From Planctomycetaceae bacterium (GTDB taxonomy: Bacteria > Planctomycetota > Planctomycetia > Planctomycetales > Planctomycetaceae): a DNA stretch of 64,000 nucleotides. Location of the stretch: contig JANQRQ010000039.1 in NCBI GenBank assembly GCA_028284485.1, forward strand, positions 1 to 64,000, given 5' to 3'. The position numbers and the translations under genes are program-made. Every line of letters begins with the position of its first letter. Position 1 is the first letter of the stretch. The notes under the pieces were generated by a model. The model saw only the letters and a list, made by a program, of their open reading frames with translations. It ran no database searches and was not told the DNA's origin. Positions 11,625 through 26,385 of the stretch are shown piece after piece.

Positions 11625-13763
11625 ATGGCTACAGGGCATCTACTCACTGAGGATTTGAATATCCCCAACACCTTCGGCCCGTCCAGTCGGCCTATGGATT
11701 CTTCAAGAATCCTGTTTGAGCTGATGCAGTTGTCGCATCAAGCTGATGAGGCCCGTCGGCAAAACGGACAGGCCGATATGCTGGAAGACGTCATTTCCAA
11801 GTCGATTCTCAGGCGGCTTCTTTCCGCCTTGCATTTTCGCGATGCGGCGACAGTCAATCATTCCCGACGAGTTGCGAAGTTGTCAGTGGGAATCGCGCAA
11901 TTCCTCAGTTGGGAAGGCCAACCGCTCAAACTGTTGGAAGTTGCAGGTTTGTTGCACGATATCGGCAAAATCGGCGTTCCAGACAACATCCTGTTCAAGC
12001 CAGGCCGACTCAACCCGGACGAAGCAGGGCTCATGGCATTGCACTACAACATCAGTCTTGATGTGTTACAGGCATGCCGTGTTGATCGAGGCGTTTTGGA
12101 GATCATCAGCCAGTCTCATACTCATTACAACGGTGCCACCGATGGATTTCGACGAATTGGCAGCGATGTTCACCAAGGAGCACGAATTCTCGCCGTTGCC
12201 GACGCCTACGATTCGCTGTCGATGGACAAAGTTTATCGCGAAAAGAAAACGCACGAAGAAATCATGGAGATTCTTCATGCAGAATCGGGAACGCAATTCG
12301 ACGGCAACATCGTCCGCGCGTTATCTCGGTGGATTGACACAAATGGACTTCCTTTTCAAACCGAAAAATCCGAGCCAGTCGCCAACCAGGCGCAGATGAC
12401 TCCTGTTGACCACGAAGAGACGCTACGAGCAAGTTCATTAGGTAACGTCTTTTCCTACCTGTATATCCTCGAAAGCCTTTACGACGGCTTCTATCTCGTC
12501 GACGCCGATCGCCACTACCGAATTTGGAATCGAGGGGCCGAACGACTGTTAGGACAACGTGCCACGACCGTCCTGAATCAAACATGGGACGAGAACCAAT
12601 TTGAGATGATCAGCAAGTTTGGAGATCCGCTTCCCGAAGAAGAGCGGCCCCTTCGCCGAATCTTCGAAACTGGAAAGGCGACCACTTCCGAGATTCAAAT
12701 CCAACAAACCAACGGCTCCTGGATCCCTGTGGAGTTACAATCCGTTCCGGTTGTTGACGATAACGGCTTGGTGATCGGAGTTGCTGAGATTTTCCGCGAC
12801 TTGTCCCGAACCGGCACCTGTTCGGAATACCGTGAGCTCAAACTGGCCGCATGCCGCGACTCTCTCACTTCAGTTGCCAACCGCGGTTCGCTGGAAACCC
12901 AATTGGCGATGCTCATTACCGAGTTCTCGGAGAGTTCACTACCGGAGCCATTCAGTGCGATATTCCTCGACATTGATCACTTCAAACAGATTAACGATAC
13001 ATTCGGACACTCCATCGGTGATCAAGTACTGATTGAAATCGCCAGGTTACTGCAACACGAGACCTACTCGGGGGAACTTGTCGGGCGTTTCGGTGGCGAA
13101 GAATTCATGATTCTTTGCCCTGCCACAAATCTGGATCAGGCGCAACGTCGCGCGGAACGGTTGAGGCTTGCTATTTGTGCAGCCGACATCGCAGAACTCG
13201 ACGACTTCTCAGTCAGCGCTTCGTTTGGCGTTGCCCAATCGGAACCCGGCGACTCGGTCGAGAGCATTATTCGGCGTGCGGATACAGCACTGTACGCTTC
13301 CAAAGAGGGTGGGCGCAATAGAACGACAACGTTGACCACCGCGGAAATGATCGAGCAAAATAGCACAGCCAAAGAACAGAAACGCTCAGCCGACGCGATG
13401 CGTTTTCAAACTGTGCTTCATGCTTGCGTTGCTTCTGACATCGTGATCTACAAGCTTGGCGGATTCGTCGACGATCATCGTGCATCTCTTCGCGAGGTCA
13501 CTTCTGAGCGAGTTGTCATTCGCATCGGCAGTCGTGGGATCCTGCCATTCTGGGGAGGATCGGACCGCACTCGGCCGGTAGAAATGGAATTGGAGTTCGG
13601 AGACCGAATCACCAAAACACGTCGGCGATCTAAGGAAGCCAGCTCGCGCGTCGAGATTCAAGTTCGTATCCGACCGATCGGCATTGCCAGAAATCGCGAA
13701 GCTTTTCAGGCTCGGGCAAAGCGCGTGTTGCACGCACTCCGGGAATACCTCGTCGCGGATTGA
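11625..13763 (+). CDS. HD domain - PAS - GGDEF signalling protein
   Basis: 712 residues. An HD phosphohydrolase-like domain (about 60-215) keeps NHSRRVAK and LLHDIGKIGVPD, but where HD-GYP enzymes have HHExxDGxGYP it reads SHTHYNGATDG, so GYP is absent. A PAS domain follows (about 270-390: YDGFYLVDADRHYRIWNRGAERLLG). The GGDEF domain (about 400-560) has GGEEF at 490-494, compatible with diguanylate cyclase activity. The RxxD inhibitory site just before it is missing (the region reads TYSGELVGRF). The last 130 residues are basic and beta-rich and might be PilZ-like, but this is uncertain. It is soluble and probably makes or senses c-di-GMP. An in-frame ATG at residue 24 could be the true start. 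Confidence 0.87.
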   Translation: MATGHLLTEDLNIPNTFGPSSRPMDSSRILFELMQLSHQADEARRQNGQADMLEDVISKSILRRLLSALHFRDAATVNHSRRVAKLSVGIAQFLSWEGQPLKLLEVAGLLHDIGKIGVPDNILFKPGRLNPDEAGLMALHYNISLDVLQACRVDRGVLEIISQSHTHYNGATDGFRRIGSDVHQGARILAVADAYDSLSMDKVYREKKTHEEIMEILHAESGTQFDGNIVRALSRWIDTNGLPFQTEKSEPVANQAQMTPVDHEETLRASSLGNVFSYLYILESLYDGFYLVDADRHYRIWNRGAERLLGQRATTVLNQTWDENQFEMISKFGDPLPEEERPLRRIFETGKATTSEIQIQQTNGSWIPVELQSVPVVDDNGLVIGVAEIFRDLSRTGTCSEYRELKLAACRDSLTSVANRGSLETQLAMLITEFSESSLPEPFSAIFLDIDHFKQINDTFGHSIGDQVLIEIARLLQHETYSGELVGRFGGEEFMILCPATNLDQAQRRAERLRLAICAADIAELDDFSVSASFGVAQSEPGDSVESIIRRADTALYASKEGGRNRTTTLTTAEMIEQNSTAKEQKRSADAMRFQTVLHACVASDIVIYKLGGFVDDHRASLREVTSERVVIRIGSRGILPFWGGSDRTRPVEMELEFGDRITKTRRRSKEASSRVEIQVRIRPIGIARNREAFQARAKRVLHALREYLVAD

Positions 13764-15897: not shown

Positions 15898-16785
15898 TTA
15901 TTTCGATGCGCTACGGTCGTTTGCACCTTGCTGCGGCAACCACCGACGAATGTACCGGGCGGCCGGTTGCTGACGAATGGCGGTCCGCCCGCGGCTCAGC
16001 GCTTCTGCCGTTCGTGCCAGGGCTCGCTGCCGATCGACATTATCGGCGACAAATACCTTCAATGCGGCCGCAGCTTGTTTGGCTTCGGCATCGTCCTTGG
16101 AACCAAGGACTCGGCAAATATGCCAGCGATATTTCGGGTCGGCGATCGCTGCAGTCCAATTGGCCGTTTCCGGAGCCCGCGTTGGCATACTCAAGAAAAC
16201 GATTTCAGGGTGACTGGGAATCCTTCCGCCAATGAGTTTCACGACGTCCTGCAGAATCTTTGGGGCATCGGTTTCGCTTGGCTGGACAAGGGCGTAATTG
16301 GCGATGACTCGGTTCTCATTTGCGATAAGAATTGTCAGATTAACATCACGATTCAACCCGTAACTGCCCGGACCTTCGGCTCCGTCCAACGAAATCCCCA
16401 CCGGCCGTCCCATGCCCCACCAACTGATCGCCTGCTGCAAATACTGTTCGGCTGCCGAACGGTCTCCATCGAGCCAAACAACTGCGGCAAATAACTCCTC
16501 TTCGGTCCGCATTTCTGCGTAGTTCATCAGGACTCGCGTCAACCGGGCCGCCGGCCGATTCGCACCATTAACCAAGACAAGCAACGTGGGCTTCCCTTCG
16601 GAGGCGCTCACAACGTCGATCTCTTGTCCCCGGTCGACACCATAAGCCAGCAAAACATTAATCTGCGGCAACGGTTCCCCCTTCTGGGGGCCAGAGAACA
16701 CCGCTTCATCGTCAGCAATCGCGGCGACAGTAATGGACAGCATTGCAATGACGATGGGTATTTGAATTTGGCTTGCGATGTTCAT
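15898..16785 (-). CDS. secreted thioredoxin-fold-like protein without CxxC (paralogue 1)
   Basis: 295 residues from the ATG at 16785, which has AAGGAG eight bases upstream; the frame stays open 25 codons further but without a ribosome site. A signal peptide runs to about AIADD. The body resembles a peroxiredoxin/thioredoxin fold (KPTLLVLVNGANRP, then GRPVGISLDGAEGPGSYGLN, then LTILIANENRVIANY). There is no CxxC and only one Cys in the mature part, so thiol chemistry is unlikely. It shares GAEGPGSYGLNR and LVQPS with the protein at 23511-24488, of which it is a clear paralogue. It is last in the nine-gene minus-strand block. Function unknown. Confidence 0.8.
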   Translation of the reverse strand: MNIASQIQIPIVIAMLSITVAAIADDEAVFSGPQKGEPLPQINVLLAYGVDRGQEIDVVSASEGKPTLLVLVNGANRPAARLTRVLMNYAEMRTEEELFAAVVWLDGDRSAAEQYLQQAISWWGMGRPVGISLDGAEGPGSYGLNRDVNLTILIANENRVIANYALVQPSETDAPKILQDVVKLIGGRIPSHPEIVFLSMPTRAPETANWTAAIADPKYRWHICRVLGSKDDAEAKQAAAALKVFVADNVDRQRALARTAEALSRGRTAIRQQPAARYIRRWLPQQGANDRSASK

Positions 16786-16903
16786 CAATGGATCTCCTTG
16801 AACATGGCCCAAACAATAGACATTGGAGTCTAGTGCCGACATTCGATCCACATCGAGCACATCCGCTGGCAGTCGACCGCCAGTAGCGACGACCGTTTAG
16901 ACA

Positions 16904-17863
16904 TTACTCTTCCGGTTTTGGCAGCAGCACGACCCGAGCGAGTTGCCCACGGTCGCCACCAACAACCGCTTCCTGATTACCGGAATGAACAGCCACGCAA
17001 TAGGCCCAGCCATCAATTGCGGGTGATTCCTGAAGGATTTCCACGGTGTCTGGATCAATCGTCCTCAATTGCCCGTCTGTACAGCTCACAACGATGCGGT
17101 CCCCGCTACTTGTCCAATCCACTGCGAGCGGGACACTCCCCGACACCTTGCAGAACCGCACCATCCGTCCAATTGTCGGTTGCCATAACCTTGCCGTCCG
17201 GTCGCGACTCACTGAAGCAATCATCGGCAATACATCCGGATCCGATGATGGGCGCAGCGCAACGTCGTGGACGGGCTGAGTGTGGTTGTTAAACGCGCGA
17301 ATGTTATTCCCTGATGGTAGCTCCCAAACACGAACGCTTTGGTCAATCCCCGAGCTGACCAAAGTCTTTCCATCCGAAAGAAAACAAACCGCCGTCACCG
17401 GCCGCGAATGACCTTCGATTTGCACATTCGTCTCTCCGGAATCTGCATTGTGCACTGTGACTTTCCAGTCGAGGCTCGCCGTTGCCACTTGATGCGAATC
17501 CGCTGACCAATCGACCGCGTAAATCAAATCGTCATTGGTCGAGCTGCGAAATAGCAATTTGCCACTTGGCCACGCGAACATTTCCAACGTCCCCTCTTCC
17601 GCCGGAGTACCTCCGACAACAGCCACGCGGTCGCCATCCGGTGAAAATGCCAAATCGTGAATGTGCAGCAATTCGCTTTCGAGACGTCGAACGCTTTCGA
17701 TTCCCGGCCAAGACTTCACCTCTAGTCCGGATTGCGAGCCAACCAGTATCCGTTCCGCATTCGGCACAAACTTGACGGCAGTGACCGGAGCCTCCGCCGC
17801 ATAAAGAGACGAAGTCAACAACATGAAAACCAAGTTCGTAAATGTTTTCACGATTCTCCTCAT
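16904..17863 (-). CDS. secreted WD40 repeat protein
   Basis: 319 residues from the ATG at 17863 (MRRIVKTFTNLVFMLL), which gives a proper signal peptide. The frame is open 109 codons further upstream, but that part overlaps the next gene and is composition noise. WD40 repeats are visible, for example SADSHQVATASLDWKVTVHNADSG, DGKTLVSSGIDQSVRVWELPSG and SVSRDRTARLWQP. They would form a beta-propeller of about seven blades, a periplasmic or surface protein-binding scaffold. It lies 43 bp after the stop of the 621-residue protein, within the ECF-headed block. No enzymatic domain is attached. Confidence 0.88.
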   Translation of the reverse strand: MRRIVKTFTNLVFMLLTSSLYAAEAPVTAVKFVPNAERILVGSQSGLEVKSWPGIESVRRLESELLHIHDLAFSPDGDRVAVVGGTPAEEGTLEMFAWPSGKLLFRSSTNDDLIYAVDWSADSHQVATASLDWKVTVHNADSGETNVQIEGHSRPVTAVCFLSDGKTLVSSGIDQSVRVWELPSGNNIRAFNNHTQPVHDVALRPSSDPDVLPMIASVSRDRTARLWQPTIGRMVRFCKVSGSVPLAVDWTSSGDRIVVSCTDGQLRTIDPDTVEILQESPAIDGWAYCVAVHSGNQEAVVGGDRGQLARVVLLPKPEE

Positions 17864-17906
17864 TTGATTTCTGAAATCCCCCGCACGACGGGACTGTCTG
17901 GCAACG

Positions 17907-19772
17907 TCACTCGCCCGTAACTGGCCACTGTTGCACGGGATTCTCCCACACCTGACACAACGGTTCGTCCGTCCGCTCGAAGCCGTCTTGAGCCCACCCA
18001 GCATCAATCGATAACACGGTCTGCCCATCAATTTCGTTGCGGTATTCGTACAAGGGACGCAACATCGGAAACGAGTTCGCCTGCTCATTCGAAATGCCGT
18101 AAAACAGCGGCTGAGCGTCGCCTCGAGTTGCGTGGACAGGAACAGTGAAAGGAGATTCTCGATCCATGGCGAAAAAAGCAACCGGCGCATCCATGCTTGA
18201 AACGTGCTCCATCCCCGTGCTTGCCATCGTCAGTTGTCGACCATGGCGATAAACGGGAACGGGCATTGTCACCCGCTGATCGTCCAAATTCAGCCGATAC
18301 ATGATTTGATTGTAATCATATCTCGGCGTCTTATGTTCGTTTCCCGAAAACAACGTGGTGTAGGTCCCCTCAAAATAGATCGTCCGGCCACCACGACTTG
18401 CAAAAAAAGGATGCTGCTTGGGATTGTAAAAACTGTACTTGTGATGCGTCACAATTTTCCGCGCGTAACCCCAAGGACCTAACGGCGAATCGGCTTCGGC
18501 ATACCAAATCTCACCCAACAACGACGTCCCGAAACTCTGCAAGCCGATCAAAAGCCATCGATTCCGATACTCGTTGAAGTAAACTGATCCTCCGTGAATT
18601 GCGATCAGATCGCCGGTCTCGACATCGATAAGTCGCGGTTGGATTTCGTCGTCCTGTAACAATCCACCTTTTTTGAATTCTGCTTGAAGCTTTGCGCTCA
18701 GCGGCGGCGTTCGACGCTTCCAGCCATACCGCAATGCTCCGTCCGCCCTGCGGTCTAGCTGGGGCAAATCGGCACTACTCCCCTCCTTCAAGCAGGTAAA
18801 TGATTCGTACTGATCCAAGTCTTGAATGGCTTCAATCGTTGCTGGCACGCGCGTGAGCGGAAATGGCTTCGCGAAGTAAACATACTCGATCCCCTCGTCC
18901 TGAAACAAAAAGGGATGTCCCGAGGGATAAACCGCTGCGTTGTCCGGGAATTTCAAGACCTGCTCGAACTCCTGGCGTTTCGGGTTAAACTCCGCCAATC
19001 CGTGCCGATAAACCGTAAGCGGTGGCTTAACTTTGACATAGTGCGCGAACATCCGCTCACGGCCGTCATCGTTTAACACAATCAAACTGTCGATCCAAGT
19101 CGGACCACTCCCCGGCATCTTCGCGGTCTCTTTGGCGAACCCTTCGGCACCAACAAAGTAGCGAAGATCGACTCCCACGTTAGGCGACAGACCGCCATTT
19201 GCCGGAAGCTCTGATGTTGCACCTGGGACGTGAAAGTTGCCCAAGGGATAGCGCGGTCGATTGGTGTCCCCCCAGAACCAATGGACTTTCCCGCCGAACA
19301 ACGCGCTAACCACACTATCCGATCCGAGCACCTTGGCATTTAGCAGCGGCTCTACAATCGGTATTTCGTTTCCGATCAGCCGACTATCGCGATAGATTCC
19401 GCCGCCGGTTACTCGATACAACCGCTCGGCAACATTAGTCCTCTGAATTTGAATCGTCGCGGTATTGCCCGGAGTTAACTGAAATGCTTTGCCCCGAAAC
19501 CCAAATCCATCTTTCGGAAACTCGTATCCGTGACTCGTCACGCGAAAGAAGACACTTTGCCCCATTAATCCAGGTTCGTTGATTGCTGCGACACCATCAC
19601 TGTCGGTTACGAATCGAATTCCGTTTACGGTTTCGAGTTCGACAAGCGGCACTCCACGCCCAGTTTCCGAATCGACAACCGTAATTGCAAAATATTCGGA
19701 ATCGCCTGGTGCCAAGTCGACTGCGGGAATAACAAATAGCAGCCAAGCGAGGCATTGTGCGCGCAGTATCAT
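17907..19772 (-). CDS. secreted protein: Ig/carboxypeptidase-regulatory-like domain plus propeller-like domain
   Basis: 621 residues with an N-terminal signal peptide (MILRAQCLAWLLFVIPAVDLA). Residues 25-110 look like a carboxypeptidase-regulatory-like beta-sandwich (FAITVVDSETGRGVPLVELETVNG). The remainder is rich in Trp, Tyr and Gly with repeated segments such as GGKVHWFWGDTNRPRYPLG, GHPFLFQDEGIEYVYFAKPFP and SFYNPKQHPFFASRGGRTIYFEG, as in five-bladed glycosidase-like propellers (DUF4185-like). I do not recognise a definite family. A surface carbohydrate-binding or -cleaving role is a guess. It sits between DUF1501 and WD40 genes with short gaps, so probably in one transcript. Confidence 0.7.
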   Translation of the reverse strand: MILRAQCLAWLLFVIPAVDLAPGDSEYFAITVVDSETGRGVPLVELETVNGIRFVTDSDGVAAINEPGLMGQSVFFRVTSHGYEFPKDGFGFRGKAFQLTPGNTATIQIQRTNVAERLYRVTGGGIYRDSRLIGNEIPIVEPLLNAKVLGSDSVVSALFGGKVHWFWGDTNRPRYPLGNFHVPGATSELPANGGLSPNVGVDLRYFVGAEGFAKETAKMPGSGPTWIDSLIVLNDDGRERMFAHYVKVKPPLTVYRHGLAEFNPKRQEFEQVLKFPDNAAVYPSGHPFLFQDEGIEYVYFAKPFPLTRVPATIEAIQDLDQYESFTCLKEGSSADLPQLDRRADGALRYGWKRRTPPLSAKLQAEFKKGGLLQDDEIQPRLIDVETGDLIAIHGGSVYFNEYRNRWLLIGLQSFGTSLLGEIWYAEADSPLGPWGYARKIVTHHKYSFYNPKQHPFFASRGGRTIYFEGTYTTLFSGNEHKTPRYDYNQIMYRLNLDDQRVTMPVPVYRHGRQLTMASTGMEHVSSMDAPVAFFAMDRESPFTVPVHATRGDAQPLFYGISNEQANSFPMLRPLYEYRNEIDGQTVLSIDAGWAQDGFERTDEPLCQVWENPVQQWPVTGE

Positions 19773-24647: not shown

Positions 24648-25106
24648 TTAGTTTTGCCGACCCGAATCCGGCGATCGCGACTTGTTGTTTCCTGGTTTTT
24701 CCGATTCCGCCCCGTTGACCCTGGACTTGGATTTGCGCGTCGTGTTCTTTGCGTCCGACGCCAATGCGTTGTCGATTCGTCGTTTGAGAATTTCAAACCG
24801 CTCTCGACCGACGATTCTCCTCAGTTCCGTTTGCAAATTATGATAGTTTGCCAAGAGCTGGCGTTGAAGTTCGATAATGTCCGACTGCAATCGCTCAGCG
24901 TGATCCACTGAGAATTCAAACTGAGAATAGACCAACGTCAATTCGCGTTGCCGTTGCGAGAGCGCCGTTTTGAGTTCGCGATCGCGCTCTTGCGTCCTTT
25001 GTATCAACAGCCGCAATTGGCTGTATTGCGCCGAAGTCAACGGCGCCGGTTTCACCTGGGGTTCGTCCGCGAACATCAGGGTACTACATAACAAAAGTGC
25101 GGACAT
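24648..25106 (-). CDS. small periplasmic helical protein, Spy/CnrX-like sensor candidate
   Basis: 152 residues from the ATG at 25106, with GGAG seven bases upstream. That ATG sits one base after the stop of the anti-sigma gene; the longer open frame overlaps that gene and is discounted. A short signal peptide (MSALLLCSTLMFA) precedes a helical hairpin, PLTSAQYSQLRLLIQRTQERD to ERFEILKRRIDNAL, and a basic disordered tail. The LTxxQ-like opening and layout resemble Spy/CpxP and CnrX heavy-metal sensors (PF13801-like). Two His residues (VDHAERL and NYHNLQ) could bind metal. Position after an ECF sigma and anti-sigma pair supports a sensor role, but homology is not proven. Confidence 0.65.
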   Translation of the reverse strand: MSALLLCSTLMFADEPQVKPAPLTSAQYSQLRLLIQRTQERDRELKTALSQRQRELTLVYSQFEFSVDHAERLQSDIIELQRQLLANYHNLQTELRRIVGRERFEILKRRIDNALASDAKNTTRKSKSRVNGAESEKPGNNKSRSPDSGRQN

Positions 25107-25107
25107 C

Positions 25108-25497
25108 CTATTTCTCCTGCTCGAACGCTTGCAGCCCTGACAACAACAATGACTGCTGATTTGAGATGATATCCAATGAATCGACTGGTGGGGGCGTGAG
25201 CAAAAACTCAGCATCAGGTACGTTGTCAACGTTGGCCTGCGTCAACTCGCCTATCGATTGATGGTCGTTTTGAGGAAACTGCCGCCCCATCAAGAAGACC
25301 AAGAACAAAGACAACGCCACCGCTCCTCCAACAAGGAAACGTGAGCCATTTCGACGACGATGAATTCTACGAAGAACGCGTTGCTCCATTCCTGAAGAAG
25401 CCGCTGGTAGCGGAATCGATGAAAGGGCCTCGCCTAAGCGTTCGTCGTCGGCATTACGGTTTTCAGATTGATGTGGACTACTCATGCTGGCCATCAT
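25108..25497 (-). CDS. single-TM anti-sigma factor candidate
   Basis: 129 residues, or 125 if translation begins at the ATG at 25485, whose first bases overlap the sigma stop. The N-terminal 55 residues are cytoplasmic and include GMEQRVLRRIHRRRNGSR. One membrane helix follows (FLVGGAVALSLFLVFLMG), then a short acidic periplasmic tail. There is no zinc-binding HxxxCxxC motif, so it is not a classical ZAS anti-sigma, but size, topology and overlap with the ECF gene fit an anti-sigma such as CnrY. Function is inferred from context. Confidence 0.7.
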   Translation of the reverse strand: MMASMSSPHQSENRNADDERLGEALSSIPLPAASSGMEQRVLRRIHRRRNGSRFLVGGAVALSLFLVFLMGRQFPQNDHQSIGELTQANVDNVPDAEFLLTPPPVDSLDIISNQQSLLLSGLQAFEQEK

Positions 25498-26068
25498 TCC
25501 AGATTTCGCTGATCCTTTGTCTTGCCCGTGAAAGCCGCATTTTTAGCCGTTCACGAGGCACGTTGATAATCGTGGCAATCTCAGCCAAATCTTTTTTTTC
25601 GAAGTAGTAAAGGTGAATGAGAACTCGATCGGACTCCGACATTTCGTTGAGGGCATCTCGTAACCGTGATGCACGAATCTCAGATTGTTCGCGTTCGCTG
25701 ACGACTTCCACTGTCGATGGAGTCGCGTCGTTAATGGTTAATGTGGAGAACCTCGCTTGGCGACTCCACCACCGTCGACGGCTCTTGCGCAAATCAAGAA
25801 CACATCGGACGGTGATTCGATACATCCAAGCTTCGGCGCCAGACTCGCCTCGCCATTGTGTCGATTTCGACCAAATCCGCTGAAAGGCATCAACTGCGGC
25901 CTCCTCGGCCAGCGCTTCATCGTCGACCACTCGAAATGCCAAACGAAATAACCGATCCTGATATTGCCGAACCAACTCAATGAGTGCCTGTTCATCACCC
26001 TGCTGACATCGCCGCAAAAGTTTTTCAGCGTCACGTGTGGGTTCCACTATTTCGCCTACAGGTGACAC
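25478..26068 (-). CDS. ECF-type RNA polymerase sigma factor
   Basis: 196 residues from a GTG; another GTG at residue 8 is also possible. Region 2 is LVRQYQDRLFRLAFRVVDDEALAEEAAVDAFQRIWSK with the ECF-type DxAEDxxQ-like helix. Region 4 is SDRVLIHLYYFEKKDLAEIATIINVPRERLKMRLSRARQRI. It should direct RNA polymerase to stress- or signal-specific promoters. The next gene overlaps it and looks like its membrane anti-sigma. It heads a co-directional block reaching 15898, so it may control those genes, but I could not pick out a repeated promoter motif. Confidence 0.93.
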   Translation of the reverse strand: MSPVGEIVEPTRDAEKLLRRCQQGDEQALIELVRQYQDRLFRLAFRVVDDEALAEEAAVDAFQRIWSKSTQWRGESGAEAWMYRITVRCVLDLRKSRRRWWSRQARFSTLTINDATPSTVEVVSEREQSEIRASRLRDALNEMSESDRVLIHLYYFEKKDLAEIATIINVPRERLKMRLSRARQRISEIWNDGQHE

Positions 26069-26385
26069 AATTCCGTGGCAGGTCAGCCATAAACAAGCCA
26101 GCGAAATTCGGCACAGGTATTAACAGGGGACGGCTCGGCTACAAGAACGTCCGTATCATAGACGCCGCCGCTCGACGAGCGGTAACTCATTTTTGTCTCT
26201 TCTCTTCGGGGCCCATCGATTTGACGAACCCCGTCCGCAAGATGGTGTCGCTAATTCGGCCGGGCGCCGACAAATAGAGTTCGGGTACCAGACACGCCAT
26301 AACCCCAATAACCTTTTATCGCGTATCACCTTACGTCAATCCGCAGAATATCGACCCCATATCAATGGAATTGAGATAACACATC
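26069..26385. other. divergent intergenic region, no gene seen
   Basis: 317 bp between the ECF sigma gene (minus) and the GNAT gene (plus). It must hold promoters for both. I see no convincing -35/-10 pair, repeat or strong hairpin. Short open frames here have no ribosome site and look like noise. Confidence 0.5.

Follow-up and report, generated by a model that had tools for sequence, protein, structure and literature searches.

Which signal might free an ECF sigma factor whose gene is followed by a membrane anti-sigma candidate and by a helical protein resembling the nickel sensor CnrX is the question raised by one locus in a window of 64,000 nucleotides, the whole stretch of DNA analysed here, from a Planctomycetaceae bacterium (contig JANQRQ010000039.1). 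By ORF coordinates, the minus strand carries three consecutive genes: an ECF sigma factor of 196 aa with a GTG start (P0003; 26068-25478), a membrane anti-sigma candidate of 129 aa (P0002; 25497-25108), assigned by its place and overlap, and a protein of 152 aa (P0001; 25106-24648) predicted from AlphaFold2, Foldseek and conserved relatives to be an exported three-helix hairpin with a CnrX/Spy-like fold, called the sensor below. The sigma and anti-sigma reading frames share 20 nt and P0001 starts one base past the anti-sigma stop, which confirms the order and coordinates given in a preliminary description of this DNA. The longest ORF of P0001 encodes 193 aa from a TTG start and begins upstream of the 152-aa start. 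The motif PLTSAQYSQ, which the same description had placed at the beginning of the protein, lies at residue 22 behind a presumed leader, while the two His residues that it counted are correct (69 and 89 only).

To see how widely the unit recurs, we searched related genomes for the sensor. The window sensor sequence alone had matches in 10 of 170 family genomes at E <=0.01 (3 clear), and a three-row sensor profile had matches in 13 of 397 class genomes (8 of them clear, with E no higher than 2.5e-19). With a profile of eight rows and a threshold of E 1e-5, matches came from 7 of 199 genomes in the family to which G441 belongs and from 3 of 95 in that of G357, and among 392 genomes across the phylum the sole match was the window's own locus. 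These genome draws overlap and combine to 13 distinct loci, spread over three families within the class, with weak matches at E 0.0015-0.008 left aside (7 for the single sequence, 5 for the three-row profile). The order sigma, anti-sigma, sensor is found in 12 of the 13 loci located by sensor profile, so the arrangement is more than chance. G797 is a fragment without sigma or neighbour genes, the G809 sigma lacks its 5' part, and in G802 sigma and sensor are each broken across two frames; G797 was omitted when operon and promoter features were counted, the sensor alignment excludes G797 and G802, and the sigma tree excludes all three. In the first eight loci the anti-sigmas were assigned by place rather than by similarity. 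A tblastn search with the window anti-sigma recovered only that of G441 (3.5e-4), and a profile of the eight then recovered those of G805, G809, G844 and G802.

The window sigma matches Sigma70_r2 and Sigma70_r4 with 38.6 and 37.3 bits (Pfam cut-offs 24 and 24.1), and a scan of the genome contigs with its sequence returned four distant sigmas. On a tree of 10 cassette sigmas, 22 sigmas from related genomes, one from locus L136 of the same genome and CnrH, the cassette label takes 2 changes, where shuffled labels take 8.8 and none of 500 shuffles was as low; a single change is seen in only 6% of bootstrap trees; judged by their sequences, the cassette sigmas are close kin. CnrH, on a long branch, groups with eight other sigmas behind a 99/98 branch, apart from the 10 cassette sigmas. 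L136 (411-3369, contig C285) is itself a second trio of sigma, short membrane protein and PF13801 protein, in which PF13801 (32.2 bits, above the cut-off) forms one fusion protein with an alpha/beta hydrolase domain (BD-FAE, 79.5 bits).

Upstream of the sigma genes we found a conserved promoter-like element. By searching eight sigma upstream regions for pairs of boxes with a spacer of 14-18, the best 6+4 pair was GTTACC...GCGT, present in 6 of 8, where 60 shuffled sets gave 2 or 3 of 8. Its form in the window, GTTACC-N16-CGTCT (26160..26186, minus strand), lies 96 bases ahead of the annotated sigma start and is the only match in the window, where 0.04 were expected. Variants occur in G421 (spacer 15), G379 (CGTCC), G032 (GTGACC) and G071 (CATCT). 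These eight loci are the discovery set, to which the relaxed form was fitted by eye; in four held-out loci with a sigma, the strict element with spacer 16 was found in three (G844, G805 and G802) and was not found in G809, where the 5' part of the sigma is missing. Overall, the strict element is present at 9 of 12 sigma loci and the relaxed one at 11 of 12, compared with 9 single strict matches in 2000 shuffled sets of 12 (0.0004 per locus). The element falls inside the longest ORF in G307 and G844, so the true sigma start was placed further in. The usual ECF boxes are AAC and CGT, and about 55% of ECF sigmas are predicted to be autoregulated, according to the accessible part of one source (PMC8103513); from its sequence, GTTACC is a putative variant of the first box. 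The conserved element ahead of the sigma gene points to autoregulation of the sigma via this predicted promoter. A wider regulon was also considered and set aside as the pattern did not rise above control genome-wide: GTTACC-N15..17-CGTC occurred 44 times in the same genome versus 78 for the reversed control, and GTTACC-N16-CGTCTW occurred 9 times in eight genomes, 4 of them at the operon, versus 22 for the control. With counts below control, no second target is evident.

Behind the sensor, the gene order continues to be shared. Of the 12 triad loci, 11 have a contig that runs on past the sensor, and in all 11 the next gene is P0004 (24488-23511, minus strand, in the window), a member of an exported protein family without a Pfam model. 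A PSCyt2 (DUF1549)-PSD1 (DUF1553) protein (23422-21293, minus strand; PF07583 140.3 bits, PF07587 139.2 bits, both above cut-off) and a DUF1501 protein (21187-19820, minus strand), both assigned by Pfam, are downstream in 10 of 10 triad loci with a long enough contig. A WD40 protein (longest ORF 16904..18190, minus strand; repeats tested on 16904-17773) is downstream in 8 of 9, with no WD40 match found at G307. Two further genes complete the cluster in the window: a 621-aa protein on the same strand (17907-19772), which has no Pfam match above cut-off and was not matched in any of the 12 other stretches, some being truncated, and another gene of the P0004 family (15898..16860, minus strand), recognised by its similarity to P0004. 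From the sensor onward the intergenic gaps measure 159, 88 and 105 bases, and no terminator-like site was found between the sensor, P0004 or PSCyt2-PSD1 gene and the gene that follows each; we infer that the sigma unit and the downstream genes are co-transcribed. Further along the window, at 11625-13763, is a 712-aa protein that, judged by eye, appears to combine HD-GYP, PAS and GGDEF signalling domains.

The P0004 family is widespread by itself (86 of 170 family genomes at E 1e-8), mostly without a sigma ahead of it: in 43 stretches before P0004 relatives, several cut by contig ends, a sigma within 1 kb upstream was found only in the window, G032 and G071. Its own genome has five matches to the family, two of them within this cluster, and eight aligned members share the invariant motifs FSGPQ-x-GE and ISxDGxEGPGxYGLNR. 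An AhpC-TSA assignment was too weak to keep (E 0.096 in 1 of 8 members), and a single match to the PDB was put down to chance. The window PSCyt2-PSD1 protein carries CNVGSCH at 38 and CANCH at 385, and that of G032 carries CNAGACH and CANCH, which are possible haem sites, one of them unusually spaced. PSCyt is described as of unknown function in the accessible part of one report (PMC5615132). PSCyt/PSD genes are numerous in planctomycetes, each domain occurring 41 times in R. baltica, and planctomycete WD40 genes often adjoin DUF1501 and sigma-70 genes, as far as the available portions of the sources go (PMC2754498, PMC5615132; PMC5587647).

What kind of protein the sensor is was addressed by its predicted structure and family. 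AlphaFold2, given the window protein alone, modelled helices at 25-61, 67-99 and 101-127, with block pLDDT of 91-98 across residues 31-100 and 54-86 in the third helix. In a Foldseek search of the PDB, CnrX ranked first (E 0.035, prob 1.00) and the top 28 rows comprised 14 CnrX, 6 ZraP, 2 CpxP and 2 Spy entries, none of the rows having E <0.001; on the level of a model, this supports the CnrX/Spy-type fold suggested in the preliminary description. VIA-align gave a Z of about 10 across 106-110 residues of CnrX and scored many unrelated hairpins equally, so geometry by itself is not decisive. These ties are what could be expected if the likeness to CnrX were generic and the protein an unrelated coiled-coil adaptor, as would be the lack of any significant profile match to CnrX or a PDB sequence: hhalign of the helical protein against CnrX alone was not significant, and sensor profiles against PDB sequences retrieved neither CnrX nor Spy, only weak unrelated matches. 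Against such an adaptor, which we judge quite unlikely, a single superfamily accounts for 24 of the 28 best Foldseek rows, comparison of the model with viral models gave no coherent family, and 7 of 9 relatives have PF13801 as their best Pfam match (E <0.1), in nearly one register. None of the nine reaches the PF13801 cut-off of 29.2 bits (best 25.2; CnrX control 91.2), the window protein itself has no PF13801 match, other coiled-coil families rank after PF13801 in some relatives, and the LTXXQ family appears in only 1 of 8 sensor members, at E 0.01. Kinship of P0001 with the CnrX/Spy superfamily is thus likely, not proven. P0001 is probably exported; its leader, short and with no positive charge, counts against the explanation we consider best.

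The fold directly raises the possibility of metal sensing, in which P0001 would bind a transition metal as a CnrX-type sensor and release the sigma for a metal response. The metal ligands of CnrX include His42, His46, Glu63 and His119. Met123 is also named as a ligand in the accessible part of one report (PMC7689651). By mapping these positions through an alignment of 11 sensors with CnrX, which is weak, we found no His in columns 42, 46 and 119 and no Glu in column 63 (I, V or M only) in any of the 11, while column 123 is Met in 4 and column 46 is Asp or Glu in 3. The window's His69 is His in 3 of 11 sensors and its His89 in 6 of 11; invariant besides the start are Q27, Q39, L49, L56, Y60, L85, E94, L95, R96 and R110. 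Given the missing CnrX ligands and the lack of conservation of the two His, the metal-binding hairpin of the preliminary description is unsupported, a CnrX-type metal site in P0001 appears unlikely from these residues, though a site of another kind may exist, and CnrX-type metal sensing was lowered as an explanation after the mapping. CnrX as best structural match, PF13801 as best family of the relatives, His89 and the acidic residues in column 46 would all suit a metal sensor; the loss of the ligand columns in 11 sensors and the lack of an efflux gene directly behind, unlike cnrCBA, speak against it, and we regard this reading as very improbable. Since the metal-holding residues are missing and cytochrome-like genes lie behind, a signal other than metal is likely, and P0001 likely senses something else.

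The window anti-sigma contains no Cys and no HxxxCxxC, as had been noted from the sequence, and has no Pfam match; PF17524 (CnrY) matches none of eight cassette anti-sigmas, compared with 174.9 bits for the CnrY control. Its single-sequence model is weak (mean pLDDT 63, pTM 0.23) and has helices at 12-26 and 37-71, the latter extending as far as the hydrophobic stretch, and a third helix at 106-128 that would be exported. CnrY is described, in the accessible parts of two reports, as a class II anti-sigma that wraps around the sigma with two helices, helix 1 corresponding to class I helix 1 on sigma4 and the second to helix 4 on sigma2 (PMC7406223, PMC4598750). The window anti-sigma may be a shrunken clasp of this CnrY-like kind. 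HxxxCxxC is present in 2 of 12 cassette anti-sigmas (G379 and G307) and absent from the window's and nine others. On the sigma tree G357 has G379 as its sister (99/92) and G307 branches next to this pair (93/64); the G357 anti-sigma lacks the motif, so the zinc motif has changed at least twice. The exported tail has a PV pair in 9 of 12 anti-sigmas and PPPV in 3 (by eye), and this region is a candidate docking site. In the G844 anti-sigma candidate (L193:1673-2254) nine NHHDT repeats open the cytosolic part, and its close relative G802 has none.

From the computed gene order and its conservation, the predicted fold, the conserved element and the missing CnrX ligands, the reading to which we lean, with some confidence, is an ECF switch that controls its own expression, precedes an exported cytochrome-like operon and includes a CnrX/Spy-fold partner other than a CnrX-type metal sensor. 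Weighing against it, besides the intergenic gaps and the short leader, are structural matches all at E 0.001 or above, sequence comparisons with CnrX and PF13801 short of significance or cut-off, the missing element at G809 and genome-wide element counts not above control. In the resting state, the sigma would be held by the membrane anti-sigma, probably by short cytosolic helices as in CnrY, and the exported hairpin would dock on the exported tail of the anti-sigma and tune this hold. A signal from outside would then free the sigma, which would use the GTTACC-N16-CGTCT promoter to transcribe its own unit and the P0004, PSCyt2-PSD1, DUF1501 and WD40 genes. The signal is probably not a metal in the CnrX manner; as a guess, the system might respond to the condition of the cytochrome-like products after export, or to folding stress in the envelope. 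A strong rival, in our estimate still unlikely, is that the helical protein is a Spy/CpxP-like effector chaperone rather than a signal partner, the anti-sigma sensing alone or by proteolysis. Spy and CpxP act as effectors in the response to envelope stress. They and ZraP are among the best structural matches, and a gene inside an autoregulated unit is where an effector could be found; by contrast, this gene lies directly behind the anti-sigma in 12 of 13 loci, ahead of all others, and the anti-sigma tails have the PV pair in common. A bolder version of the switch holds that the CnrX/Spy-fold protein has become a sensor that works without metal and reports on the state of its client or of the envelope for cytochrome-like PSCyt2-PSD1 proteins, that the anti-sigma shrank from a zinc class I domain to a CnrY-like two-helix clasp within one orthologous operon, and that the GTTACC-N16-CGTCT promoter is dedicated, with almost no other targets; taken whole, we hold this to be doubtful.

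The switch with its predicted promoter offers a handle on the downstream genes, as the signal that frees the sigma would show when the PSCyt/PSD operon is needed. If true, the reading would also mean that sigma signalling can use the CnrX fold even in the absence of the CnrX metal site. In subscription-free literature for the most part, we found no report of a CnrX-like partner in a PSCyt2-PSD1-type operon. A related case is known from R. baltica, where the ECF sigma RB10049, which rises in heat, cold and salt, was proposed to control the PSD1/PSC2 protein RB10051; this pairs an ECF sigma with a PSD1-PSC2 protein as in the window, and the accessible part of that report mentions no anti-sigma or CnrX-like partner (PMC2754498). 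The periplasmic chaperone and stress proteins Spy, CpxP and ZraP share the predicted fold and an LTxxQ-like start of helix 1, and differ in that the window gene lies between the anti-sigma and its target genes. With CnrYXH of Cupriavidus metallidurans (NC_007972), the window shares a zinc-less membrane anti-sigma, a periplasmic three-helix hairpin and an ECF sigma in three adjacent genes. The order there is Y/X/H, whereas here it is sigma, anti-sigma, sensor; the window sensor lacks the CnrX metal ligands, its anti-sigma falls outside PF17524, and an efflux pump follows CnrYXH where PSCyt2-PSD1 and DUF1501 follow here. Membership in the Cnr family was rejected on the anti-sigma family, the gene order and a sensor below the PF13801 cut-off. 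The earlier naming of a CnrYXH-like signalling unit thus holds for the fold, the zinc-less anti-sigma and the conserved trio, and fails for metal binding and Cnr membership. Compared with class I zinc anti-sigmas, whose HxxxCxxC is kept in 2 of 12 cassette members and not in the window's, the cassette provides a set of natural variants in which related sigmas are paired with anti-sigmas that either have or lack the zinc motif.
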